Assembly: GCA_945631445.1 (NCBI GenBank)
Contig: CALZCR010000015.1
Location: 1-12,003, forward strand
Source of the DNA: an uncultured Corynebacterium sp.
GTDB taxonomy: Bacteria; Actinomycetota; Actinomycetes; Mycobacteriales; Mycobacteriaceae
DNA length: 12,003 bases
Direction: 5' to 3'
The notes under the pieces are model-generated. The model saw only the letters and a list, made by a program, of their open reading frames with translations, had not been told where the DNA came from and did not search any database. Numbering within the stretch: the first letter of the stretch is position 1; the number at the start of each line of letters is the position of its first letter. A program made the position numbers and the translations under genes. Shown in pieces: positions 748 through 12,003 of the stretch.

Positions 748-776
748 TTGCCGGGCGTCGATAAGCTCCGTAGGCT
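748..776 (+). promoter_or_regulatory. Possible promoter of the riboswitch-antiporter unit
   Basis: TTGCCG (748-753) and TAGGCT (771-776) are separated by exactly 17 nt and resemble sigma-A -35 and -10 boxes. A start 7 nt after the -10 would fall at about 783, the first base of the first riboswitch hairpin. The hexamers are imperfect, so this is inference from spacing and position. Confidence 0.4.
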
Positions 777-782
777 GGCCTT

Positions 783-830
783 GGTCAGGACGACCTGACC
801 CACAGGCAGGCTCTGCGGGGACGACCCCGC
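783..830 (+). promoter_or_regulatory. mini-ykkC (guanidine-II) riboswitch
   Basis: Two tandem hairpins with identical tetraloops are visible. Hairpin P1 is GGTCAGG (783-789), loop ACGA (790-793), CCTGACC (794-800), a perfect 7-bp stem. Hairpin P2 is GCGGGG (815-820), loop ACGA (821-824), CCCCGC (825-830), a perfect 6-bp stem extendable by one T-G pair. The linker is 14 nt. The ribosome binding site of the antiporter gene begins two bases after P2. Paired hairpins with ACGR loops closed by G-C pairs, just before a start codon, define the mini-ykkC motif, shown in the literature to bind guanidinium and interact loop-to-loop. Possible switch, inferred: ACCC at 798-801, part of P1 when folded, can pair with GGGT at 835-838 in the ribosome binding site, so ligand-stabilised P1 would free translation. 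Confidence 0.85.
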
Positions 831-844
831 GCAAGGGTTTGATC

Positions 845-1921
845 ATGTCTTTCAGCGTCATCGCGCGTCTCATCTCCGGATGGGGCGCTTTTGTCATTGT
901 CCAGTTCCTCCCGCCAGGGTTGCCCGTGTGGCCGCTGCTGATCGCGATCATCGCCGTGATCGTGGTGTGCGCCTTCGGGGTGATGGAGCAGGCCGAGCAC
1001 CTGGCGCGTCGTCTCGGCGACCCCTACGGCACCCTGGTGCTGACGATCTCGATCGTGACGATCGAGGTCATCCTCATTTCCGCGGTGATGCTCGGCCCCG
1101 GCGAGCACACCACCATCGCGCGTGACTCGATCATGGCGGTGTCCATGATCATCCTCAACCTGGTGCTCGGCGCGGCGCTGCTCGTCGGCGGGCTGCGCCA
1201 CAAGGAGATGACGCCGAACCATGACGGCGTTTCCGCGTATCTGGCGATGCTCATGGCCCTGGGCACCGTGGCCTTCGCCCTGCCGGCTGTCATCGGCGTC
1301 GACGGCTCCTACACCACCGCCCAGGCCGTGCCCGTCATCGTGTTGACCATCGGCTCTTATGTCTTTTTCCTGTGGCGGCAGATGGGCGCGCAGGCCGCCG
1401 ACTTCCAGGAACCCGGCGTCGTCGCCGCGGCCGGCCGACCCCCGGTCGGCGAAGTCATCGCCGAGCACCGCGCCGAATTGCTCAGCCGCACCGGGCTGTT
1501 GCTGCTCATGGCCATTCCCATCGTGTTGCTCAGCCACACGATGGCGGAGCTCCTCGACGTCGGGCTCACCCGACTGGGCGCGCCCGTCGCCCTGACCGGC
1601 ATCATCATCGCCGCGATCGTCTTCCTCCCGGAGACGATCACCACGCTGCGGGCCTCCTGGCTGGGCGAAATCCAGCGGGTGAGCAACCTGACCCAGGGCG
1701 CGCTGGTGTCCTCGGTGGGGTTGACGGTGCCCACGGTGCTGCTCATCGGGCTGCTGACCGGGCAGACGGTGGTCTTCGCGGAATCTCCCGCCAACCTCAT
1801 GCTGCTGGCCGTCACGGCGCTGCTGTCGGCGTCGGTCGCCTCAGGCACACGGGTGGGCGCGGTCCACGGCGTCGCGCACCTCATGGTCTTCGCCATGTAC
1901 GTGCTCAGCGTGTTCGTTTAA
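845..1921 (+). CDS. ChaA-like cation/proton antiporter (CaCA superfamily)
   Basis: A 358-residue membrane protein of about eleven segments built as two inverted halves, as in the Ca2+/cation exchanger superfamily. The alpha-1 repeat is at about residues 58-82 (GDPYGTLVLTISIVTIEVILIS, acidic residue E74). The alpha-2 repeat is at about 260-297 (FLPETITTLRAS, E263, then NLTQGALVSSVGLTVPTV). The C-terminal GAVHGVAHLMVFAMY matches ChaA proteins. E. coli ChaA exchanges Ca2+, Na+ or K+ for protons; its length is nearly the same. ATG at 845 is chosen because AAGGG (833-837) lies 7 nt before it. The guanidine-II riboswitch immediately upstream implies induction by guanidinium, so this member may export guanidinium or relieve its effect on cation balance; that substrate is inference. 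The central loop (about 180-212) is hydrophilic and divides the halves. Confidence 0.85.
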   Translation: MSFSVIARLISGWGAFVIVQFLPPGLPVWPLLIAIIAVIVVCAFGVMEQAEHLARRLGDPYGTLVLTISIVTIEVILISAVMLGPGEHTTIARDSIMAVSMIILNLVLGAALLVGGLRHKEMTPNHDGVSAYLAMLMALGTVAFALPAVIGVDGSYTTAQAVPVIVLTIGSYVFFLWRQMGAQAADFQEPGVVAAAGRPPVGEVIAEHRAELLSRTGLLLLMAIPIVLLSHTMAELLDVGLTRLGAPVALTGIIIAAIVFLPETITTLRASWLGEIQRVSNLTQGALVSSVGLTVPTVLLIGLLTGQTVVFAESPANLMLLAVTALLSASVASGTRVGAVHGVAHLMVFAMYVLSVFV

Positions 1922-1949: not shown

Positions 1950-2350
1950 TGGACACAGGAGCGATGGCCTATTTACGCCGGGCACGGGCCGGACTAGACC
2001 GGCTCACCCCCGCGCAAGCCCACCGGGAACAACGAGACGGGGCGCTGCTCATCGACGTCCGCATGCCCGCCCACCGCGCCGAGCAGGGAGAGATCCCCGG
2101 CGCGATCGTCATCGACTTGACCGTGCTGCCGTGGCGGCTGGACCCGAGCTTCGATTGGCGCATCCCCGAGGCCACCGGTTGGGACAACCGCTACATCCTC
2201 GTCTGCCGGCACAGTTATTCTTCGTCGGTGGCGGCGTGGCAGCTGCGGCAGATGGGGTTGACGGGCGCGACCGACGTGATCGGCGGGTTTGAGGCCTGGG
2301 CTGCCGCCGGGCTGCCCGTGGGGTCGGGCCCGGCGGACGTGCGGGACTAA
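1949..2350 (+). CDS. Single-domain rhodanese-like protein
   Basis: A 133-residue cytoplasmic protein with one rhodanese (sulfurtransferase) domain and no signal peptide. It shows LLIDVR (33-38, with D36 and R38), IPGAIVIDL (49-57), the active loop starting at Cys86 (CRHSYSS, 86-92) and the closing GGFEAWAAAGLPV (112-124). The Cys that would carry a persulfide is kept, but the loop ends in Ser where many rhodaneses have Arg (CxxGxRS), so substrate preference may differ. The start at 1949 is supported by a -10 box giving a leaderless mRNA; ATG at 1964 has AGGAG only 2 nt before it, too close. The stop overlaps the end of the convergent gene by 4 nt. Sulfur donor and acceptor cannot be told from sequence. 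Confidence 0.88.
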   Translation: MDTGAMAYLRRARAGLDRLTPAQAHREQRDGALLIDVRMPAHRAEQGEIPGAIVIDLTVLPWRLDPSFDWRIPEATGWDNRYILVCRHSYSSSVAAWQLRQMGLTGATDVIGGFEAWAAAGLPVGSGPADVRD

Positions 2351-3096
2351 CGGCGGGCGACGCCGTCGACGATGAGCATCTGGCCTAAGTTCGACAGGCT
2401 CGTGGCGGTGGCTTCCACCAGACGGGCGCCGACGCCGCGGCGGCCCTTGAGCAGGGTGGCCCGCACCAGGGTCAGCGCTTCGGCGGCGAGCACCAGGTTC
2501 GCGCCGTGGCCCAGGCCCTCGGCATGCGCGTTGCCGCGGCGGATCTTCGGGTCATCCGCCAGGTCGCTGGCATAGGCCAGCGCCGCCCCGCCGGCGACGG
2601 TGGCCGGGAGGATCGCGCGGTTGCGTAAGGCGGCCAGGCCCAGTCCGGCGGCGACCAGTCCGCCGCGCAGGGCGACGCCCACCCCGGAGGGCGCCACGTC
2701 ATAGGCGTCGCGCACGGCGAGTCCGTAGCCGGCGTGCTGCGCGGCGGCGGCGACGGTCGCGGCCGCCGTGGGGTTTTCCGGGTCGGTGCGCTTGCCCGTC
2801 TGGGCGACGGTGGCGCCGGTGATCGCGCCGGCCAGCAGCGCTTTTTCCTGTGCCGGTCGGCTGGTGCGGGCGACGGTGCCCAGCAGCATCGGCAGGGTCA
2901 TCGGCTGCGTCACGGACAGCACTTTTTGCCAGCCGAAGACGGTGGCCAGGGTGGTGGCGTCGTTGAGCGCCAAAAAAGCCAGGCGCTCCGGCTCGGTGCG
3001 GGCGGCGGCGATCGAGGCGATGGTCGATTCGATGCCCCGGTAGGTGCGGTCGAGGAACTCGCTGACGATGGTGTCGCCGAGCTCGGCCTGCTGCAT
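2347..3096 (-). CDS. Conserved hypothetical protein coupled to topA
   Basis: A 249-residue, Ala/Gly/Leu-rich protein that I do not recognise firmly. Its N-terminus (1-45) looks soluble and helical. Moderately hydrophobic stretches at about 60-75, 86-98, 138-156, 162-178 and 197-216 could be weak membrane helices. The pattern QPMTLPMLLGTV followed by short helices resembles YhhN-type lysoplasmalogenases only vaguely, and I do not assign that function. ATG at 3096 is preceded by a strong AGGAGG site (6 nt spacing) inside the end of topA. Its start overlaps the topA stop by one base (TAATG), so it is translated by coupling with topA. An uncharacterised gene also follows topA in mycobacteria (Rv3647c, from memory). 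The stop codon overlaps the convergent rhodanese gene. Confidence 0.75.
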   Translation of the reverse strand: MQQAELGDTIVSEFLDRTYRGIESTIASIAAARTEPERLAFLALNDATTLATVFGWQKVLSVTQPMTLPMLLGTVARTSRPAQEKALLAGAITGATVAQTGKRTDPENPTAAATVAAAAQHAGYGLAVRDAYDVAPSGVGVALRGGLVAAGLGLAALRNRAILPATVAGGAALAYASDLADDPKIRRGNAHAEGLGHGANLVLAAEALTLVRATLLKGRRGVGARLVEATATSLSNLGQMLIVDGVARR

Positions 3097-6912: not shown

Positions 6913-6946
6913 CGACAAAACCGCCCCGGCACATGCCGGGGCGGTT
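6913..6946 (-). terminator. Strong terminator of cspA, possibly bidirectional
   Basis: A perfect 12-bp stem (6919-6930 with 6935-6946) encloses the loop ACAT. In the cspA direction the stem is followed by TTTTGTC, a short U-tract. In the dedA direction only TT ends the stem before GCAG, so termination there would be weaker. It lies 44 nt past the cspA stop and 11 nt past the dedA stop, and is the only barrier between these convergent genes. Confidence 0.85.
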
Positions 6947-6990
6947 GCAGCGATCAGGATGGTTCTGCGTCAGAACCGTCGATGCTTGTC

Positions 6991-7194
6991 TTAGAGCGGG
7001 TGAACCTGCTGAGCCTGCGGGCCCTTGGCGCCTTCGCCGACCTCGAACTCAACCTGCTGGTTCTCCTCCAGGGTGCGGAAGCCCGCGCCCTGGATCTCGG
7101 AGTAGTGGACGAAGACGTCGGCGGAGCCGTCGTCCGGAGCGATGAAGCCGAAGCCCTTTTCAGCGTTGAACCACTTAACAGTTCCAGTTGCCAT
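6991..7194 (-). CDS. cspA: Cold-shock protein CspA
   Basis: A 67-residue single cold-shock domain, the normal length for CspA/CspB proteins, which bind single-stranded RNA and DNA and melt RNA structure. The RNA-binding motifs are RNP1 KGFGFI (13-18) and RNP2 VFVHY (27-31), after the typical start [10 protein letters not shown]. The ending [10 protein letters not shown] is usual for actinobacterial members. AGAAGG lies 9 nt before the ATG. Transcription ends at the strong hairpin at 6913-6946. The position between topA and the divergent helicase gene is conserved in related genera, as far as I recall. A weak TAGTTT -10 (7221 to 7216, minus strand) could start a short leader; a longer leader through the structured upstream DNA is also possible. 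Confidence 0.97.
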
Positions 7195-7270
7195 GATGAT
7201 GTACCTTCTCGGGATAAACTAGGTGTGGCGGTTATCGACAGATAAATCGATCCCCGGGTCGTACCGAACC

Positions 7271-7300
7271 ACCAGACCTCCGCTGCGGCGGAAACCTGGT
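7271..7300 (+). other. Hairpin overlapping the terminator stem
   Basis: ACCAG (7271-7275) pairs with CTGGT (7296-7300), and TCCGC (7279-7283) with GCGGA (7288-7292), around a 3 x 3 internal loop. Its 3' arm shares bases 7298-7300 (GGT) with the terminator stem, so the two structures partly compete. This arrangement is seen in attenuators, but it may also just be a stem stacked on a terminator. Confidence 0.4.
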
Positions 7301-7335
7301 GCTCGCGTGTACTTCTTTTGCGAGCACCTTTTATT
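7298..7335 (+). terminator. Intrinsic terminator without an upstream gene
   Basis: A perfect 9-bp stem, GGTGCTCGC (7298-7306) with GCGAGCACC (7320-7328), has a 13-nt loop rich in T and is followed by TTTTATT. This is a textbook Rho-independent terminator on the plus strand. No plus-strand gene ends before it: the nearest, dedA, stops at 6907 and is cut off by the convergent cspA. It must therefore end a small RNA or act as an attenuator in the leader of the helicase gene. Confidence 0.75.
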
Positions 7336-7395
7336 GAACTGCGCACAGAATCGCGACCAACACCGAGTGTGCCACGGGAGGGGAAGTGCGGCTAC

Positions 7396-7452: not shown

Positions 7453-9852
7453 ATGTCACTTGGTGACGGAATCGGCGGCGGCGACCAGCGCAATCCCCTG
7501 GGCGAGGAACTGTTGTCCGCCGCCGACCGGCGGTTCCCCGAATCCCGCCGCACCCACACCGCCACGCTGGCGCCGCGACCCGCCCGCCACGCCGACTGGC
7601 CCGAGTGGATACTGCCCGACCTGCGCGCGCACCTGCACGAGCGCGGCGTCGAGCGCCTCTACCTCCACCAGGTCGAATGCGCGGAGCACGCCTGGGCGGG
7701 CCGCGACGTGGTCGTGGCCACCGGCACGTCCTCCGGCAAATCGCTGGGCTACCAGCTGCCGATCCTCTCCCGCCTGGCGGCCGACCCGAAGGCCTGCGCG
7801 CTGTACCTGACGCCGACCAAGGCCCTGGGCTCCGACCAACTGCTCGCCGCGAGCGAGCTGACCGGCGCCGTGCCCGGCCTGGGCGGCGTCCACCCGGCCC
7901 CCTACGACGGCGACACCCCCACGGAAGCGCGCGCCGGTATCCGGGAGTCCTCGCGGCTGGTGTTCACCAACCCGGACATGCTGCACGTGTCCGTGCTCGG
8001 CCACCATCAGCGGTGGGCGCGACTGCTGCGCCGCCTGCAGTTCATCGTCGTCGACGAGTGCCACACCTACCGCGGCGTGTTCGGCGCGAACGTCGCTTTG
8101 ACCCTGCGCCGCCTGCTGCGCCTGGCGGCGCATTACGGCGCGCACCCGACGATCATCTTGGCCTCGGCGACCGCGGCGGATCCGGCGGAGCACGCCTCCC
8201 GGCTGACCGGCCGCGAGGTCGTCGCCGTCACCGACGACGGCGCCCCCACCGGCGCACGCACCGTCGCGTTGTGGGAACCGGGTTTCTTGGACGGCGTCGA
8301 GGGCGAAAACGGCGCGCCCGTGCGCCGGGCCGCCACCACGGAGGCCGCCGGAGTGATGGCCACGTTCGTCGCCGAGGGCGCGCGCACCCTGACGTTCGTG
8401 CGCTCGCGGCAATCCGCGGAGACCGTCGCGATGCGCACCCGAGAAGATTTGGTCGGCATGGGCCGGCGCGACTTCGCCGGGCGCATCGCCTCCTACCGGG
8501 CCGGCTACCTCGCCGAGGACCGGCGACAGTTGGAGCGCATGCTTGACGACGGCTCCCTGCTCGGCGTCGCCACCACCAACGCCTTGGAGCTCGGCGTGGA
8601 CGTCGGCGGCCTGGACGCCGTGGTCACCGCCGGTTTCCCCGGCACGGTGGCCAGCTTCTGGCAGCAGGCCGGGCGGGCCGGGCGCCGCGGCCAAGGTTCG
8701 GTGGTGGTGCTGGTCGCCCGCGACGAGCCGATGGACACCTACCTGGTCCACCACCCGGAGGCGCTGCTGGGCACACCCGTCGAGCGCAGCGTCTTCGACC
8801 CCACGAACCCGAACGTGTTGCGCGGGCACCTGTACTGCGCCGCGGTGGAGCACCCGCTGTCGGAGGCGGAGGTCGCGGACCTCGGCGCGGGCGAGGTCGC
8901 CGCAGAGCTCACCCGCGCCGGGCTGCTGCGCAAACGCCCCGCCGGGTGGTTTCCCGTGCCCCGGCCGGCGGGCGTCGACGAGCTGCCGACCCCGGAATCC
9001 GCGCACGCCTCGGTGTCGTTGCGCGGCGGCAGCGGCGCGGAGGTCATGATCGTGGACGTCTCCGACGGCCGGCTGCTGGGCACGATCGACGCCGGCCGCG
9101 CGCCTGCGCAGGTCCATCCCGGCGCGGTGTACCTGCACCAGGGGGTCAGCTACGTCGTCGAGGAGCTGGATCTGGCGGATTATGTGGCGCTGGTGCGCCC
9201 GGAGGTCCCGGAGTTCACCACCACGGCGCGCTCGGTGACCGACATCCGGGTGCTGGGCCAGCCCGGTGAAGAGGAGTTGGTCAACTACTCCCCCGGCCTG
9301 TGGGTGGCCAACATGGAGGTCGAGGTCACCGACCAGGTGGTGGGTTATGTGGTCCGGCTTGCCGACGGCAGCGTGGGCGACGTCGTCGCCTTGGACATGC
9401 CGCAGCAGCGGCTGGTGACCCGGGCGGTGGCCTACACGCTCGATCCGCTGGCGCTGGCCGCGATGGGCGTCGACGCGGCGGATATCCCCGGCGCGCTGCA
9501 TGCGGCGGAGCATGCGGCGATCGGATTGTTGCCGTTGTTGGCCACCTGCGACCGGTGGGACATCGGCGGGGTATCGACGGCGTTGCACCAGGACACGGGT
9601 TTGCCGACGGTGTTCGTCTATGACGGGCACCCGGGCGGGGCAGGGTTTGCGGACGAGGGGTTCGCGCGTTTCCCGGAGTGGGTGGCGGCGACTTTTGAGG
9701 CGGTGCGTTCGTGTCCGTGTGAGGCGGGGTGTCCGTCGTGCGTGCAGTCGCCGAAGTGCGGCAACGGTAATAATCCGTTGAGCAAGGACGGTGCGGTGAA
9801 GGTGTTGGGGGCGTTGACGACGATGACGCAGGCGTCCGGCCCGCGGGTTTAA
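7453..9852 (+). CDS. DEAD/DEAH-box DNA helicase with DUF1998 (SftH/MrfA clade)
   Basis: A 799-residue superfamily 2 ATPase. The motifs appear in order: I GTSSGKS (91-97), Ia PTKALGSDQL (121-130), Ib TNPDML (172-177), II DECH (201-204), III SAT (238-240), V TNALELGVDVGG (375-386) and VI QQAGRAGRRG (404-413). The C-terminal DUF1998/MZB domain has a Cys cluster, C754, C756, C760, C763 and C769, likely binding zinc. Family members are mycobacterial SftH, a 3'-to-5' DNA translocase and helicase, and B. subtilis MrfA (YprA), which repairs mitomycin C damage; a role in DNA repair is therefore expected. The ATG at 7453 has GGGGGT 6 nt upstream; the frame is open back to 7318 but that runs through the terminator. 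The gene diverges from cspA and its stop overlaps the convergent pilus gene by 4 nt. Confidence 0.93.
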   Translation: MSLGDGIGGGDQRNPLGEELLSAADRRFPESRRTHTATLAPRPARHADWPEWILPDLRAHLHERGVERLYLHQVECAEHAWAGRDVVVATGTSSGKSLGYQLPILSRLAADPKACALYLTPTKALGSDQLLAASELTGAVPGLGGVHPAPYDGDTPTEARAGIRESSRLVFTNPDMLHVSVLGHHQRWARLLRRLQFIVVDECHTYRGVFGANVALTLRRLLRLAAHYGAHPTIILASATAADPAEHASRLTGREVVAVTDDGAPTGARTVALWEPGFLDGVEGENGAPVRRAATTEAAGVMATFVAEGARTLTFVRSRQSAETVAMRTREDLVGMGRRDFAGRIASYRAGYLAEDRRQLERMLDDGSLLGVATTNALELGVDVGGLDAVVTAGFPGTVASFWQQAGRAGRRGQGSVVVLVARDEPMDTYLVHHPEALLGTPVERSVFDPTNPNVLRGHLYCAAVEHPLSEAEVADLGAGEVAAELTRAGLLRKRPAGWFPVPRPAGVDELPTPESAHASVSLRGGSGAEVMIVDVSDGRLLGTIDAGRAPAQVHPGAVYLHQGVSYVVEELDLADYVALVRPEVPEFTTTARSVTDIRVLGQPGEEELVNYSPGLWVANMEVEVTDQVVGYVVRLADGSVGDVVALDMPQQRLVTRAVAYTLDPLALAAMGVDAADIPGALHAAEHAAIGLLPLLATCDRWDIGGVSTALHQDTGLPTVFVYDGHPGGAGFADEGFARFPEWVAATFEAVRSCPCEAGCPSCVQSPKCGNGNNPLSKDGAVKVLGALTTMTQASGPRV

Positions 9853-10172
9853 AGGGGGCCGGCCCGGGCGGTGGTGTCCCGGTTGCCGACGGTCACGGTG
9901 ACGGTGACGTCGCCGGTGTCCTCGGTGCGGCAGGCGGTGACCTCCCCGTCGTTGAGCTGGGCGGTCTCGCGGGCGACGGAGCAGCCGTCTTCGCCGTAGG
10001 CGTGCGCCCAGGCGCCGGCGACGGCGGCTAAGTCCGCGGCAAGGCGGGATTGGTGGTCGTCCAGCACCGTCTGGAAGGCGGTGAGCACGACGAACAGCAG
10101 CCCCACCAGGGCGGCGATGATGCCGGCGCTGGTGACGGTGGCGTTGCCGCGGTCGTTTCTAAGCATGCTCAC
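9849..10172 (-). CDS. TadE/G-like secreted protein (Rv3654c type)
   Basis: A 107-residue protein with an N-terminal basic stretch (RNDRG, 5-9), one hydrophobic helix (about 15-35) and an exported C-terminal domain. Cys64 and Cys81 may form a disulfide. The head NDRG-NATV resembles a type IV prepilin-like processing site but lacks the Glu at +5 (Thr14 instead), as in TadG-like minor proteins. It is the last gene of the pilus cluster; its GTG start overlaps the TGA stop of the TadE gene (GTGA, 4 nt), showing translational coupling. ATG at 10166, two codons later, is a possible alternative start. It corresponds in place and size to Rv3654c of M. tuberculosis. Its stop overlaps that of the helicase gene, leaving no room for a terminator. 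Confidence 0.8.
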   Translation of the reverse strand: MSMLRNDRGNATVTSAGIIAALVGLLFVVLTAFQTVLDDHQSRLAADLAAVAGAWAHAYGEDGCSVARETAQLNDGEVTACRTEDTGDVTVTVTVGNRDTTARAGPL

Positions 10173-10468
10173 GGGGCGGTTTCGACGGGGACGATCGCCT
10201 GGGCGGTCATGGCGCCGAAGACGGCGGGGACTTCTGCGGTGACGGTGACCAGGCCGCCGGTCTCGCGCGCCGTGACGGTGCCCGCCGGCGGTTCGTAGGT
10301 CACGCCGATGGCGTGTGCCCGGGCCGCGGCGGCGGCCGCGTCGACGGCGGCGAGTTTGGCGGACATGGTGGCGATCGCCCCGATGATCGCGGCGGCGACG
10401 ATGATGAGGCTGCTCAGCGCGAGCGCGGCCTCGACGGTCACGGAGCCGCGGTCATCCAGGCGGGTCAT
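10169..10468 (-). CDS. TadE-like pseudopilin (Rv3655c type)
   Basis: A 99-residue minor pilin-like protein. The N-terminus MTRLDDRG-SVTVEAALALSS has the features of a prepilin peptidase site: Gly8 before the cut, then Glu13 at +5, then a hydrophobic helix (about 14-36). The remainder is a small beta-rich external domain (GTVTARETGGLVTVTAEVP). TadE proteins help assemble Flp/Tad pili in the inner membrane. The ATG overlaps the stop of the Flp-like gene by one base (TGATG), and its own stop overlaps the next start, so the three small genes are translated as a coupled set. The match to Rv3655c is by synteny and motif. Confidence 0.85.
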   Translation of the reverse strand: MTRLDDRGSVTVEAALALSSLIIVAAAIIGAIATMSAKLAAVDAAAAAARAHAIGVTYEPPAGTVTARETGGLVTVTAEVPAVFGAMTAQAIVPVETAP

Positions 10469-10659
10469 CAGGCCGGGGAGTTGGACAGGGCGTCGGTGAT
10501 GATGCCTTCGATGGCGTCGACGACGCCGCCGCTGTTGATCACGGCGTAGAGCACCGCGGCCAGGGCGGCGGCCCCAAGAGAACCCATGGCGTATTCAATG
10601 GTGGACATGCCGCGGTCGTTGCTGGTCAGGGAGTGGATTCGAGTGTACAGGGCGATCAT
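10468..10659 (-). CDS. Flp-like pilin, DUF4244 family (Rv3656c type)
   Basis: A 63-residue protein, the size of Flp major pilins. The leader MIALYTRIHSLTSNDRG is followed by MSTIEYAMGSLGAAALAAVLYAVI, giving a Gly17/Met18 cleavage site with Glu22 at +5 and an adjacent Tyr23, the classical Flp signature. After the helix only about 20 residues remain (VVDAIEGIITDALSNSPA), so the mature subunit is mostly one helix. It should form the pilus filament after cutting by a TadV-like peptidase not in this window. ATG at 10659 is chosen because AAAGGA lies 8 nt upstream. The frame is open further upstream but that stretch is Arg/Pro-rich shadow of tadC. A 44-nt gap separates it from tadC, the largest in the cluster. 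Confidence 0.88.
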   Translation of the reverse strand: MIALYTRIHSLTSNDRGMSTIEYAMGSLGAAALAAVLYAVINSGGVVDAIEGIITDALSNSPA

Positions 10660-10703
10660 GGTGCAGGTCCTTTCAAGACAGGTGATGAGGGTGAGAAATG
10701 GGG

Positions 10704-11273
10704 TTAGAACGGTAGGAGTTCGCTGCCCAGGCCGATGACCACGGGTGCGAGCCCGAGGAGCACGAAGGCCGGGAGGAAGCAGATGGACAGGGGCAGGGCG
10801 ATGAGCACGCCGGCGCGTTCGGCGACGGCCGTGGCCGAAGTTCCGGCGCCTTCGCGCAGGTCGTCGGCGATGCGTCGGCAGGCTTGCGCCAGCGCGGCTC
10901 CCGAGCGATCTGAGAGCCGGGCCAGCCGGGCGAGTTCGCCGAGGCCGTCGACGTGGGCGACGTCGGCCCACGCGCGTTGGGGCGTGACCCCCACCGCGAG
11001 CAGGGCGGCGACGTTGTGCCAGTGTCCGGCGGTGGCCTCGGTGGCTGCGGCGGCCACCGCGCGGGTGGAGGCCGCGGTGGATAAACCCGCGTCGATCAAG
11101 GCGGCGAACAAGTCGATGTCGCCGGCCAGGTGGAAGCGGTCCGGTTGCTCGGCCGGCCCGTCCCGCGGGTTTTTGGGGTTGACCCGTCCGTCGGGCGGGC
11201 CCAGGCGCAGGCGCGGCCCCGCGGCGGGCACGATAAGTGCGGCGGCGAGCAGCAGCAGGGGCAGCGCGGTCAT
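10704..11273 (-). CDS. tadC: TadC-like type II secretion F-domain membrane protein
   Basis: A 189-residue inner-membrane platform protein for Tad pilus assembly. An N-terminal helix (about 3-20) precedes a Pro/Arg-rich linker, a cytoplasmic T2SSF (GspF) domain from about 51 to 150 with the repeated pattern DLFAALIDAGLS, and C-terminal helices. The stretch AERAGVLIALPLSICFLPAFVLLGLAPVVIGL (151-182) is typical of actinobacterial TadC. It is shorter than proteobacterial TadC (about 300), as usual in this lineage (Rv3657c). The ATG at 11273 overlaps the tadB stop (ATGA, 4 nt), and GGAG lies 8 nt before it. A longer in-frame reading upstream lies inside tadB and is rejected. It should pair with TadB around the TadA ATPase. 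Confidence 0.87.
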   Translation of the reverse strand: MTALPLLLLAAALIVPAAGPRLRLGPPDGRVNPKNPRDGPAEQPDRFHLAGDIDLFAALIDAGLSTAASTRAVAAAATEATAGHWHNVAALLAVGVTPQRAWADVAHVDGLGELARLARLSDRSGAALAQACRRIADDLREGAGTSATAVAERAGVLIALPLSICFLPAFVLLGLAPVVIGLGSELLPF

Positions 11274-12003
11274 GAGCGGGCTCCGGAGATGATGCGCTGG
11301 GACCAGAGGAAGCCGGCGCAGACCAGACCCGTGCCGGCCACCAGCAGCACCCCGCCGAGACCGCCGCCCAGCAGCAGTCCCAAGGGCGCGGCGCCCATGG
11401 CGGTGCCCATCGCCAGCCCCGCCAGGGGCAGGGCCATGAGGATCACGGCGCTGGCCTGGGGCCCGTTCAGAGAGGCGGCGGTGGCGTCGTCGTGGCTGTT
11501 GCGCGCACTCAAGCGGTCGCGGATCTGGCTGAGTAACCCGGTGAGTTTCACGCCGTGGCGCTCCGCCAGTTCCCAGAGGTGGCCCACGGAGGCGAGGTCG
11601 GGCGAGTGCTCCGCGGCGGCCGAGAAGGTGGCCGCCGGGCTGGTGCCCCAACGTGCCTGGGACGTGCCGGCGGCGATCGCCTCCGCCACCTCTTTAGGCG
11701 CGCGCTCGTCGAGCTCTGCCGCGGCGCGTGCCAGGGCTTCCGCCGGGCGGGCGCCGGCCTGCAAGTCCGCGACCAGGTGCCCGAGCCATCCGGCCAACAC
11801 CTCGCGGGTGGCCCGGATCCGGCGGCGGGTGCGCAGCTCCTGCAGGTGGTGGACGAGGGTGGCGGCCAGCAGCAGCGCCGCGGCGGCGACGCTGAGGCGG
11901 TCGGCCAGCAGAAACGCCGCCATCGTCACGCCCACGACCACGGCGATGAGCGGGCCCGGCGCGGCGGTGCGCCGCGGGCGGGCCGCTCGGGCGATGCGCC
12001 CGC
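11270..12003 (-). CDS. tadB: TadB-like type II secretion F-domain protein (5' end beyond window)
   Basis: Inner-membrane partner of TadC in Tad pilus assembly. At least 223 residues are seen from GTG at 11941, with hydrophobic segments MAAFLLADRLSVAAAALLLAATLV and, at the C-terminus, two helices (SAVILMALPLAGLAMGTAMG; LGLLLGGGLGGVLLVAGTGLVCAGFL). Between them is a GspF domain with EVLAGWLGHLVADLQAGARPAEALARAA. The frame stays open through the window edge at 12003, reading an Arg-rich stretch (RIARAARPRRR) typical of the loop after a first membrane helix in actinobacterial TadB. I therefore think the true start lies outside the window; GTG at 11941 is the fallback. Equivalent of Rv3658c. Its stop overlaps the tadC start. 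Confidence 0.82.
   Translation of the reverse strand, partial: GRIARAARPRRTAAPGPLIAVVVGVTMAAFLLADRLSVAAAALLLAATLVHHLQELRTRRRIRATREVLAGWLGHLVADLQAGARPAEALARAAAELDERAPKEVAEAIAAGTSQARWGTSPAATFSAAAEHSPDLASVGHLWELAERHGVKLTGLLSQIRDRLSARNSHDDATAASLNGPQASAVILMALPLAGLAMGTAMGAAPLGLLLGGGLGGVLLVAGTGLVCAGFLWSQRIISGARS

Follow-up and report, generated by a model that had tools for sequence, protein, structure and literature searches.

A predicted guanidine-II riboswitch upstream of ChaA-like antiporter genes in Corynebacterium and related actinobacteria

Introduction

Guanidine-II (mini-ykkC) RNAs such as the leader of the gdx/sugE gene in E. coli are formed by two GC-rich hairpins with ACGR loops that adjoin the Shine-Dalgarno (SD) sequence. 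The ACG nucleotides of both loops are part of the guanidine-binding pocket (PMC7736828). Known representatives are found mainly in Proteobacteria (PMC12186494). Their usual partner genes code for SMR exporters or for guanidine/urea degradation. The SMR protein Gdx, a guanidinium/H+ antiporter, has four transmembrane segments (PMC12186494). Outside this family, the products of MATE and PnuC genes that are controlled by Guanidine-IV have been proposed to be guanidine exporters on the basis of riboswitch linkage (Lenkeit et al., PMC7736828).

The locus described here, from a member of the Actinomycetota, shares with the E. coli RNA the two hairpins next to the SD, but its partner gene encodes a protein of the CaCA/ChaA type. 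As with gdx, the gene stands under a predicted guanidine riboswitch, although its product has a CAX fold and belongs to an unrelated superfamily. The MATE and PnuC examples are similar in that they concern non-SMR transporters and rely on the same kind of linkage argument, whereas both the transporter families and the riboswitch class are different. A link between any guanidine riboswitch and a ChaA or CaCA exchanger was not found in the titles, abstracts and passages listed from the open-access literature, in which the nearest entry is a tabulated RF01068 leader of C. glutamicum (see below). Within this literature, as far as it was searched, the gene family thus appears to be unreported as a partner of guanidine-II.

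Results

Two ACGA hairpins precede a ChaA-like gene

The window analysed in this study is a 12 kb contig from a fragmented Corynebacterium genome that is 77% complete. On its forward strand, the P1 hairpin (positions 783-800) forms seven perfect base pairs around an ACGA loop (GGTCAGG-ACGA-CCTGACC), and the P2 hairpin (815-830) forms six perfect pairs around the same loop (GCGGGG-ACGA-CCCCGC). The two are separated by a linker (801-814) of 14 nucleotides, compared to 13 in the guanidine-II RNA of E. coli (PMC9300104). Only a two-base spacer (831-832) lies between P2 and the SD sequence AAGGG (833-837), which is followed by the ATG start codon of the ChaA-like gene at position 845. A preliminary description of this DNA had claimed two hairpins with identical ACGA loops and perfect stems two bases upstream of an SD, which can be read directly at 783-837. 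It had also called the RNA a Guanidine-II riboswitch and named the Rfam covariance model as a check. When both strands of the whole window were searched with cmscan, RF01068 (Guanidine-II) matched positions 782-829 of the forward strand with 39.4 bits, above the gathering threshold of 32 (E 4.4e-5). This score, along with the covariation and conservation presented below, bears out the assignment and supports the window RNA as a predicted new member of the known Guanidine-II class, with ligand binding being part of this prediction.

Upstream of P1 is the sequence TAGGCT (771-776, forward strand), which may be the −10 box of a promoter from which the leader would start at approximately P1. Among 97 leaders, 49% carry a TANNNT sequence 8-22 nucleotides before P1, compared to a mean of 9% and a maximum of 16% in 200 shuffles. 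This enrichment suggests a possible transcription start near P1.

Covariation of the RNA structure

In 18 leaders from Corynebacterium, 89.8% of the pair cells hold standard pairs, and changes on both sides are present in 7 of the 12 pairs. The covariation score of 0.329 for these leaders was reached by none of 500 shuffles, and it fell to at most 0.145 when the partner was slid by 1-3 columns. The stem pairs also vary in step across 97 parsed leaders, in which the distance between loops is 27-37 bases with a mode of 30. Loops with the sequence ACGA or ACGG are present in 97 of 102 leaders, although the loop itself served as the parsing criterion; the five unparsed leaders lie outside the loop and platform counts.

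Some RNAs that resemble a guanidine riboswitch might respond to another compound, as is known for ykkC subtype 2 RNAs that changed their ligand (PMC7266159), and the RNAs described here could likewise be guanidine-II look-alikes. We regard this as highly improbable, since the ACG nucleotides of the pocket are retained in both loops of the parsed leaders, though parsing required ACG, and since Guanidine-III units share the locus in two species.

Expression platform

In the minimum-energy fold predicted for the window leader, nucleotides 807-814 of the linker (CAGGCTCT) act as an anti-SD strand that pairs with 834-841 and masks the SD, on top of P2. The SD stays paired in the predicted fold when only P1 and P2 are forced, and its predicted exposure rises from 0.26 to 0.58 when the linker is also held open, as it would be on docking of the loops. 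This arrangement agrees with the model for E. coli guanidine-II, in which the anti-SD is located in linker L1/2 (PMC9300104). The same trend was not found over the 97 leaders, where mean SD exposure is 0.45 in both the free and the docked state and a rise occurs in 52 of the 97 (p 0.31). A general linker anti-SD mechanism is therefore unsupported on these 97 of 102 leaders, for which the automatic choice of the SD may be poor. Because this platform does not appear to be general, we infer from the family that the switch upstream of chaA is an ON switch.

Linkage between the RNA and chaA

In GC-rich genomes, a match to the RF01068 model carries little weight by itself. Of 298 genomes of the order (the genome of the window excluded), 15 had a match at E ≤ 0.001, all outside the genus and eight above the cut-off, and the surrounding DNA examined at these 15 revealed no ChaA homologue. 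Three of them (L025, L035 and L038) resemble repeats of acidic codons by eye, and beyond the genus, genome-wide matches to the model were not accepted as evidence. Within Corynebacterium, matches at E ≤ 0.001 are present in 22 of 201 genomes, with 17 above the cut-off. Eighteen of these 22 matches, including 16 above the cut-off, are located directly before a ChaA homologue; they comprise that of the window and 17 others, at protein identities of 45-96%. This positioning makes chance an unlikely explanation for the matches in the genus. No ChaA homologue lies downstream of the remaining four (L014, L018, L021 and L022), of which L014 is above the cut-off. In the genus searches for RF01068 and Guanidine-III, weak matches are lost to stricter filtering, and the counts are lower bounds.

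The preliminary description had suggested a survey of the leaders of other corynebacterial ChaA-like genes for the same hairpins. A protein search revealed a chaA homologue in 27 of the 201 sampled Corynebacterium genomes, and a pair of ACGR hairpins precedes the gene in all 27. The evidence is of three grades: 18 leaders are matched by Rfam at E ≤ 0.001, eight by R2, a covariance model trained on these 18 (rough E values from 6e-9 to 0.009), and one, in addition to the 26 found by covariance model, was recognized by eye. In this last genome (G048, locus L145), both hairpins are visible with a longer linker, and the model matches are weak and partial.

The association extends well beyond the genus. 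We scanned 80 loci from named records, which are the best 80 of 296 and come from genera including Microbacterium, Brevibacterium, Arthrobacter, Nocardiopsis, Kocuria, Leucobacter, Streptomyces and Saccharopolyspora. R2 matches upstream of chaA at E < 0.01 were observed at 74 of the 80 loci and at 69 of the 75 from other genera; of the five Corynebacterium loci, three appear identical to contigs used to train R2. The Rfam gathering threshold was reached at 50 of the 80 (8, 11, 14 and 17 of 20 per batch). One locus (L072) has a marginal R2 match (E 0.039), and the motif was not found by R2 at L058, L060, L070, L079 and L101, with L060 having only 15 bases upstream of the gene. Apart from these, R2 matched the 546 kb of DNA from the named loci at E < 0.01 only twice, both times at additional guanidine-II copies in Microbacterium.

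Because these 80 loci are the closest relatives, the search was widened to more distant ones, namely 15 plasmid-borne relatives picked from 60 listed of 100 records, and 16 further genomes with a match at E ≤ 1e-10 from a phylum sample of 296. No switch is in place at any of 28 more distant ChaA/y4hA genes in these two samples. Among the plasmid-borne relatives, only two Aminobacter copies carry the switch (27.4 bits with R2; 29.6 bits with Rfam, below gathering). Of the genes from the phylum sample, one alone scores high (G743, 467.8 bits), and it has a switch that scores 49.7 bits; none is in place at the other 15 genes, all of which score at most 209.1 bits. Three additional matches were not counted: an R2 match at L217 (21.5 bits, E 0.0048) is upstream of a distant ChaA but on the opposite strand and has an ACGC loop, and weak matches in L154 (17.8 bits) and L148 (15.2 bits) lie elsewhere.

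By identity to the window protein, the relatives form two groups, with nearly all of those at 43% or more having the switch and none of those at 35% or less. There are two misfits. A Methylobacterium protein (L148) is 45% identical and its gene lacks the switch, and an Aminobacter gene in two pieces (L161), whose product is 38% identical over 243 columns, has it. On the Aminobacter niigataensis plasmid (L147), the Guanidine-II match of 29.6 bits is at 1230-1275, right before the ChaA relative. This alphaproteobacterial plasmid copy might have been transferred from one phylum to another or be an old relic.

In C. glutamicum, the neighbour of the RF01068 leader is presumably the chaA gene cg1231. 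An RF01068 entry for this organism was tabulated in 2013 with no gene named, and the leader was marked 'not observed' in RNA-seq (PMC3890552), which counts against the reading favoured here.

The antiporter and its clade

The 358-residue product of the gene at 845-1921 (forward strand) had been described as a ChaA-type exchanger, which holds in the sense of a ChaA-like antiporter with a CaCA/CAX fold. Its sole Pfam domain is Na_Ca_ex (72.5 bits in two stretches, cut-off 24.9), and the Multi_Drug_Res (SMR) domain was not found in the protein. The score for the NCBIfam equivalog ChaA (NF007895) is 149.7 bits, under the cut-off of 505. An AlphaFold model made with 63 sequences has a pLDDT of 94.6 and a pTM of 0.91, and the best solved structures retrieved with Foldseek are the H+/Ca2+ exchangers CAX1, VCX1, YfkE and CAX (TM by query length 0.67-0.76); a Na+/Ca2+ exchanger ranks next. 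The neighbouring genes in the window encode a YczE/DUF6198-like membrane protein (33-743) and a rhodanese (1949-2350).

The protein combines the CAX fold with two core acidic residues, E74 and E263, one in each repeat. These align with two glutamates of VCX1, which we take to form the ion site of that exchanger, and every one of the 108 clade rows, a count that includes near-copies, retains both. Because the aligned residues belong to a Ca2+/H+ exchanger, transport of Ca2+, Na+ or K+ has to be considered. For the substrate, the preliminary description had raised two ideas, a new guanidinium exporter or a cation antiporter required when guanidinium builds up. The RNA could be a true guanidine-II switch and the ChaA-like protein a Na+/K+/Ca2+ antiporter that restores ion balance or pH in the presence of guanidinium without accepting it as a substrate. 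The fold and the retained glutamates are in keeping with this alternative, whereas the phylogeny argues against it in placing the protein in a clade that excludes E. coli ChaA and y4hA. The E. coli protein (L156) is only 28% identical and, unlike its relative here, is not preceded by a guanidine switch.

The tree was computed for 62 of 137 collected proteins, with a midpoint root used for drawing only. A branch with support 100/98 has on one side 33 switch-bearing rows and four rows without an intact switch, and on the other 25 switchless rows that include E. coli ChaA, rhizobial y4hA, a second actinobacterial type and Methylobacterium L148. The switch label requires four changes on this tree versus 20.9 in shuffles. 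For the four exceptions inside the clade, no hairpins are visible at L070 and L079, and at L058 and L101 the P1 loop is damaged while P2 can still be seen.

Four positions distinguish the clade from the other ChaA group. T67 is present in 108 of 108 clade rows (Ala in 20 of 26 rows of the other group), S69 in 107 of 108 (Ala in 18 of 26), A286 in 107 of 108 (Ser in 24 of 26) and S289 in 108 of 108 (Ala in 23 of 26); E. coli ChaA has Ser at both 67 and 69. These differences might indicate a changed ion selectivity of the clade. However, all four residues are also found in L148, which is without a switch and lies across the branch. Their presence is therefore not strictly tied to that of the switch, and export of guanidinium becomes slightly less likely as a result. 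A protein of broader selectivity is conceivable as well, either a general organic-cation antiporter or one for multiple cations, for which guanidinium would be one of several substrates. Even Gdx carries Cs+ with low affinity (PMC13064478), but the switch class located before the gene is a guanidine class, and we consider such broad selectivity quite unlikely.

Guanidine-III and gdx as an alternative unit

Guanidine-III RNAs are present in 38 of the 201 Corynebacterium genomes (37 above the cut-off), and a Gdx-like SMR gene lies behind the RNA at all 12 of the 38 loci inspected, with two of the alignments being only partial. The RNA occurs in just one of the 27 chaA-bearing genomes (G154), compared to 37 of the 174 others. 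The expected number is 5.1, which corresponds to a hypergeometric P of 0.019, uncorrected for kinship. Guanidine-I was not found in the 27 chaA-bearing genomes. SMR genes as such occur in 15 of them, and five hold a Gdx-like SMR gene (more than 50% identity to the Gdx of L085), four of these without a Guanidine-III match.

The 80 named loci come from 79 genomes, 12 of which have Guanidine-III above the cut-off (8 of 42 and 4 of 37). All four genomes in which the Guanidine-II RNA before chaA is lost or damaged carry Guanidine-III followed by gdx, versus 8 of the 74 with an intact switch (the marginal L072 included, L060 left out). The Fisher value for this comparison, 3.5e-4, overstates independence because the four losses lie in one subclade. 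Among the eight, the gene behind Guanidine-III was inspected in four and is gdx in L049, L052 and L085 and a cytochrome b gene in L075.

The rarity of chaA together with Guanidine-III, and the presence of Guanidine-III and gdx in all four genomes with a lost or damaged switch, form the pattern expected if both units perform one job. Guanidine-III with Gdx thus seems to be an alternative to the unit of switch and chaA, and this replacement pattern is suggestive of guanidinium export, against which must be set the eight of 74 genomes that hold Guanidine-III as well as chaA with an intact switch. For an antiporter that only restores ion balance, the pattern is a difficulty: overlapping function predicts that chaA will rarely coexist with Guanidine-III in Corynebacterium, as is seen, and the four genes with a missing or damaged switch all reside in genomes that have Guanidine-III and gdx. 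A point in its favour is that the chaA locus of Microbacterium oxydans has Guanidine-III upstream of cytochrome b, a non-exporter. On balance, we judge restoration of ion balance to be rather unlikely.

Several of these loci have unusual arrangements. In Pseudarthrobacter albicanus (L085), Guanidine-III (1216-1282, reverse strand) and the SMR Gdx gene (892-1314, reverse strand) are about 1.6 kb from the guanidine-II/chaA unit. In M. oxydans BEL163 (L075), the Guanidine-III RNA (2330-2394, reverse strand, 42.7 bits) is upstream of the cytochrome b gene (447-2150 with an approximate start, reverse strand; PF13631, PF00033), which is an unexpected partner to find in the same locus as guanidine-II and chaA. 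Two Microbacterium species have a second Guanidine-II RNA (L075, 2476-2519; L105, 2493-2536) before a 94-codon gene (2533-2814 and 2550-2831, respectively), and this pair sits directly upstream of the guanidine-II/chaA unit. No Pfam family above the cut-off was found for the 94-codon protein of L075.

Other features of the window

On the reverse strand, the Rfam model for the cspA thermoregulator matches positions 6916-7367 (90.9 bits, gathering 78) and overlaps what appears by eye to be a cold-shock protein gene. Small ORFs and a T2SSF gene identified with Pfam occupy 9849-11941, also on the reverse strand, in a group that we take to resemble a Tad pilus cluster.

Discussion

Judged from sequence comparison, the best explanation is probably that a guanidine-II switch turns on a putative proton-coupled CaCA antiporter that would export guanidinium. 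In the mechanism we envisage, the two ACGR hairpins form, as supported by the covariance score and by covariation. By analogy with the family, two guanidinium ions would then bind and the loops would dock. Docking is predicted, from the fold of the window leader only, to draw the linker away from the SD so that the ribosome can start. The antiporter would finally swap internal guanidinium for H+, which is the job of Gdx in relatives.

Applied to the whole actinobacterial clade of proteins named 'calcium:proton antiporter', this proposal predicts a family of dedicated guanidinium/H+ exporters that evolved separately from SMR Gdx and can stand in for it or be replaced by it, with a different guanidine riboswitch class controlling each of the two. 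We favour this broader prediction by a slight degree. Among 8000 candidates scored, 2220 relatives have E ≤ 1e-20, although members of the other ChaA group may be among them, and the name 'calcium:proton antiporter' is found among the 120 listed.

If the proposal is true, a superfamily known for transporting Ca2+, Na+ and K+ would enter guanidine biology, and the annotation of a large clade that carries the source name 'calcium:proton antiporter' would be corrected. The clade would also lend itself to studying how a CAX pore shifts from a spherical to a planar cation. Actinobacteria, including Corynebacterium, would gain a defined guanidine response.
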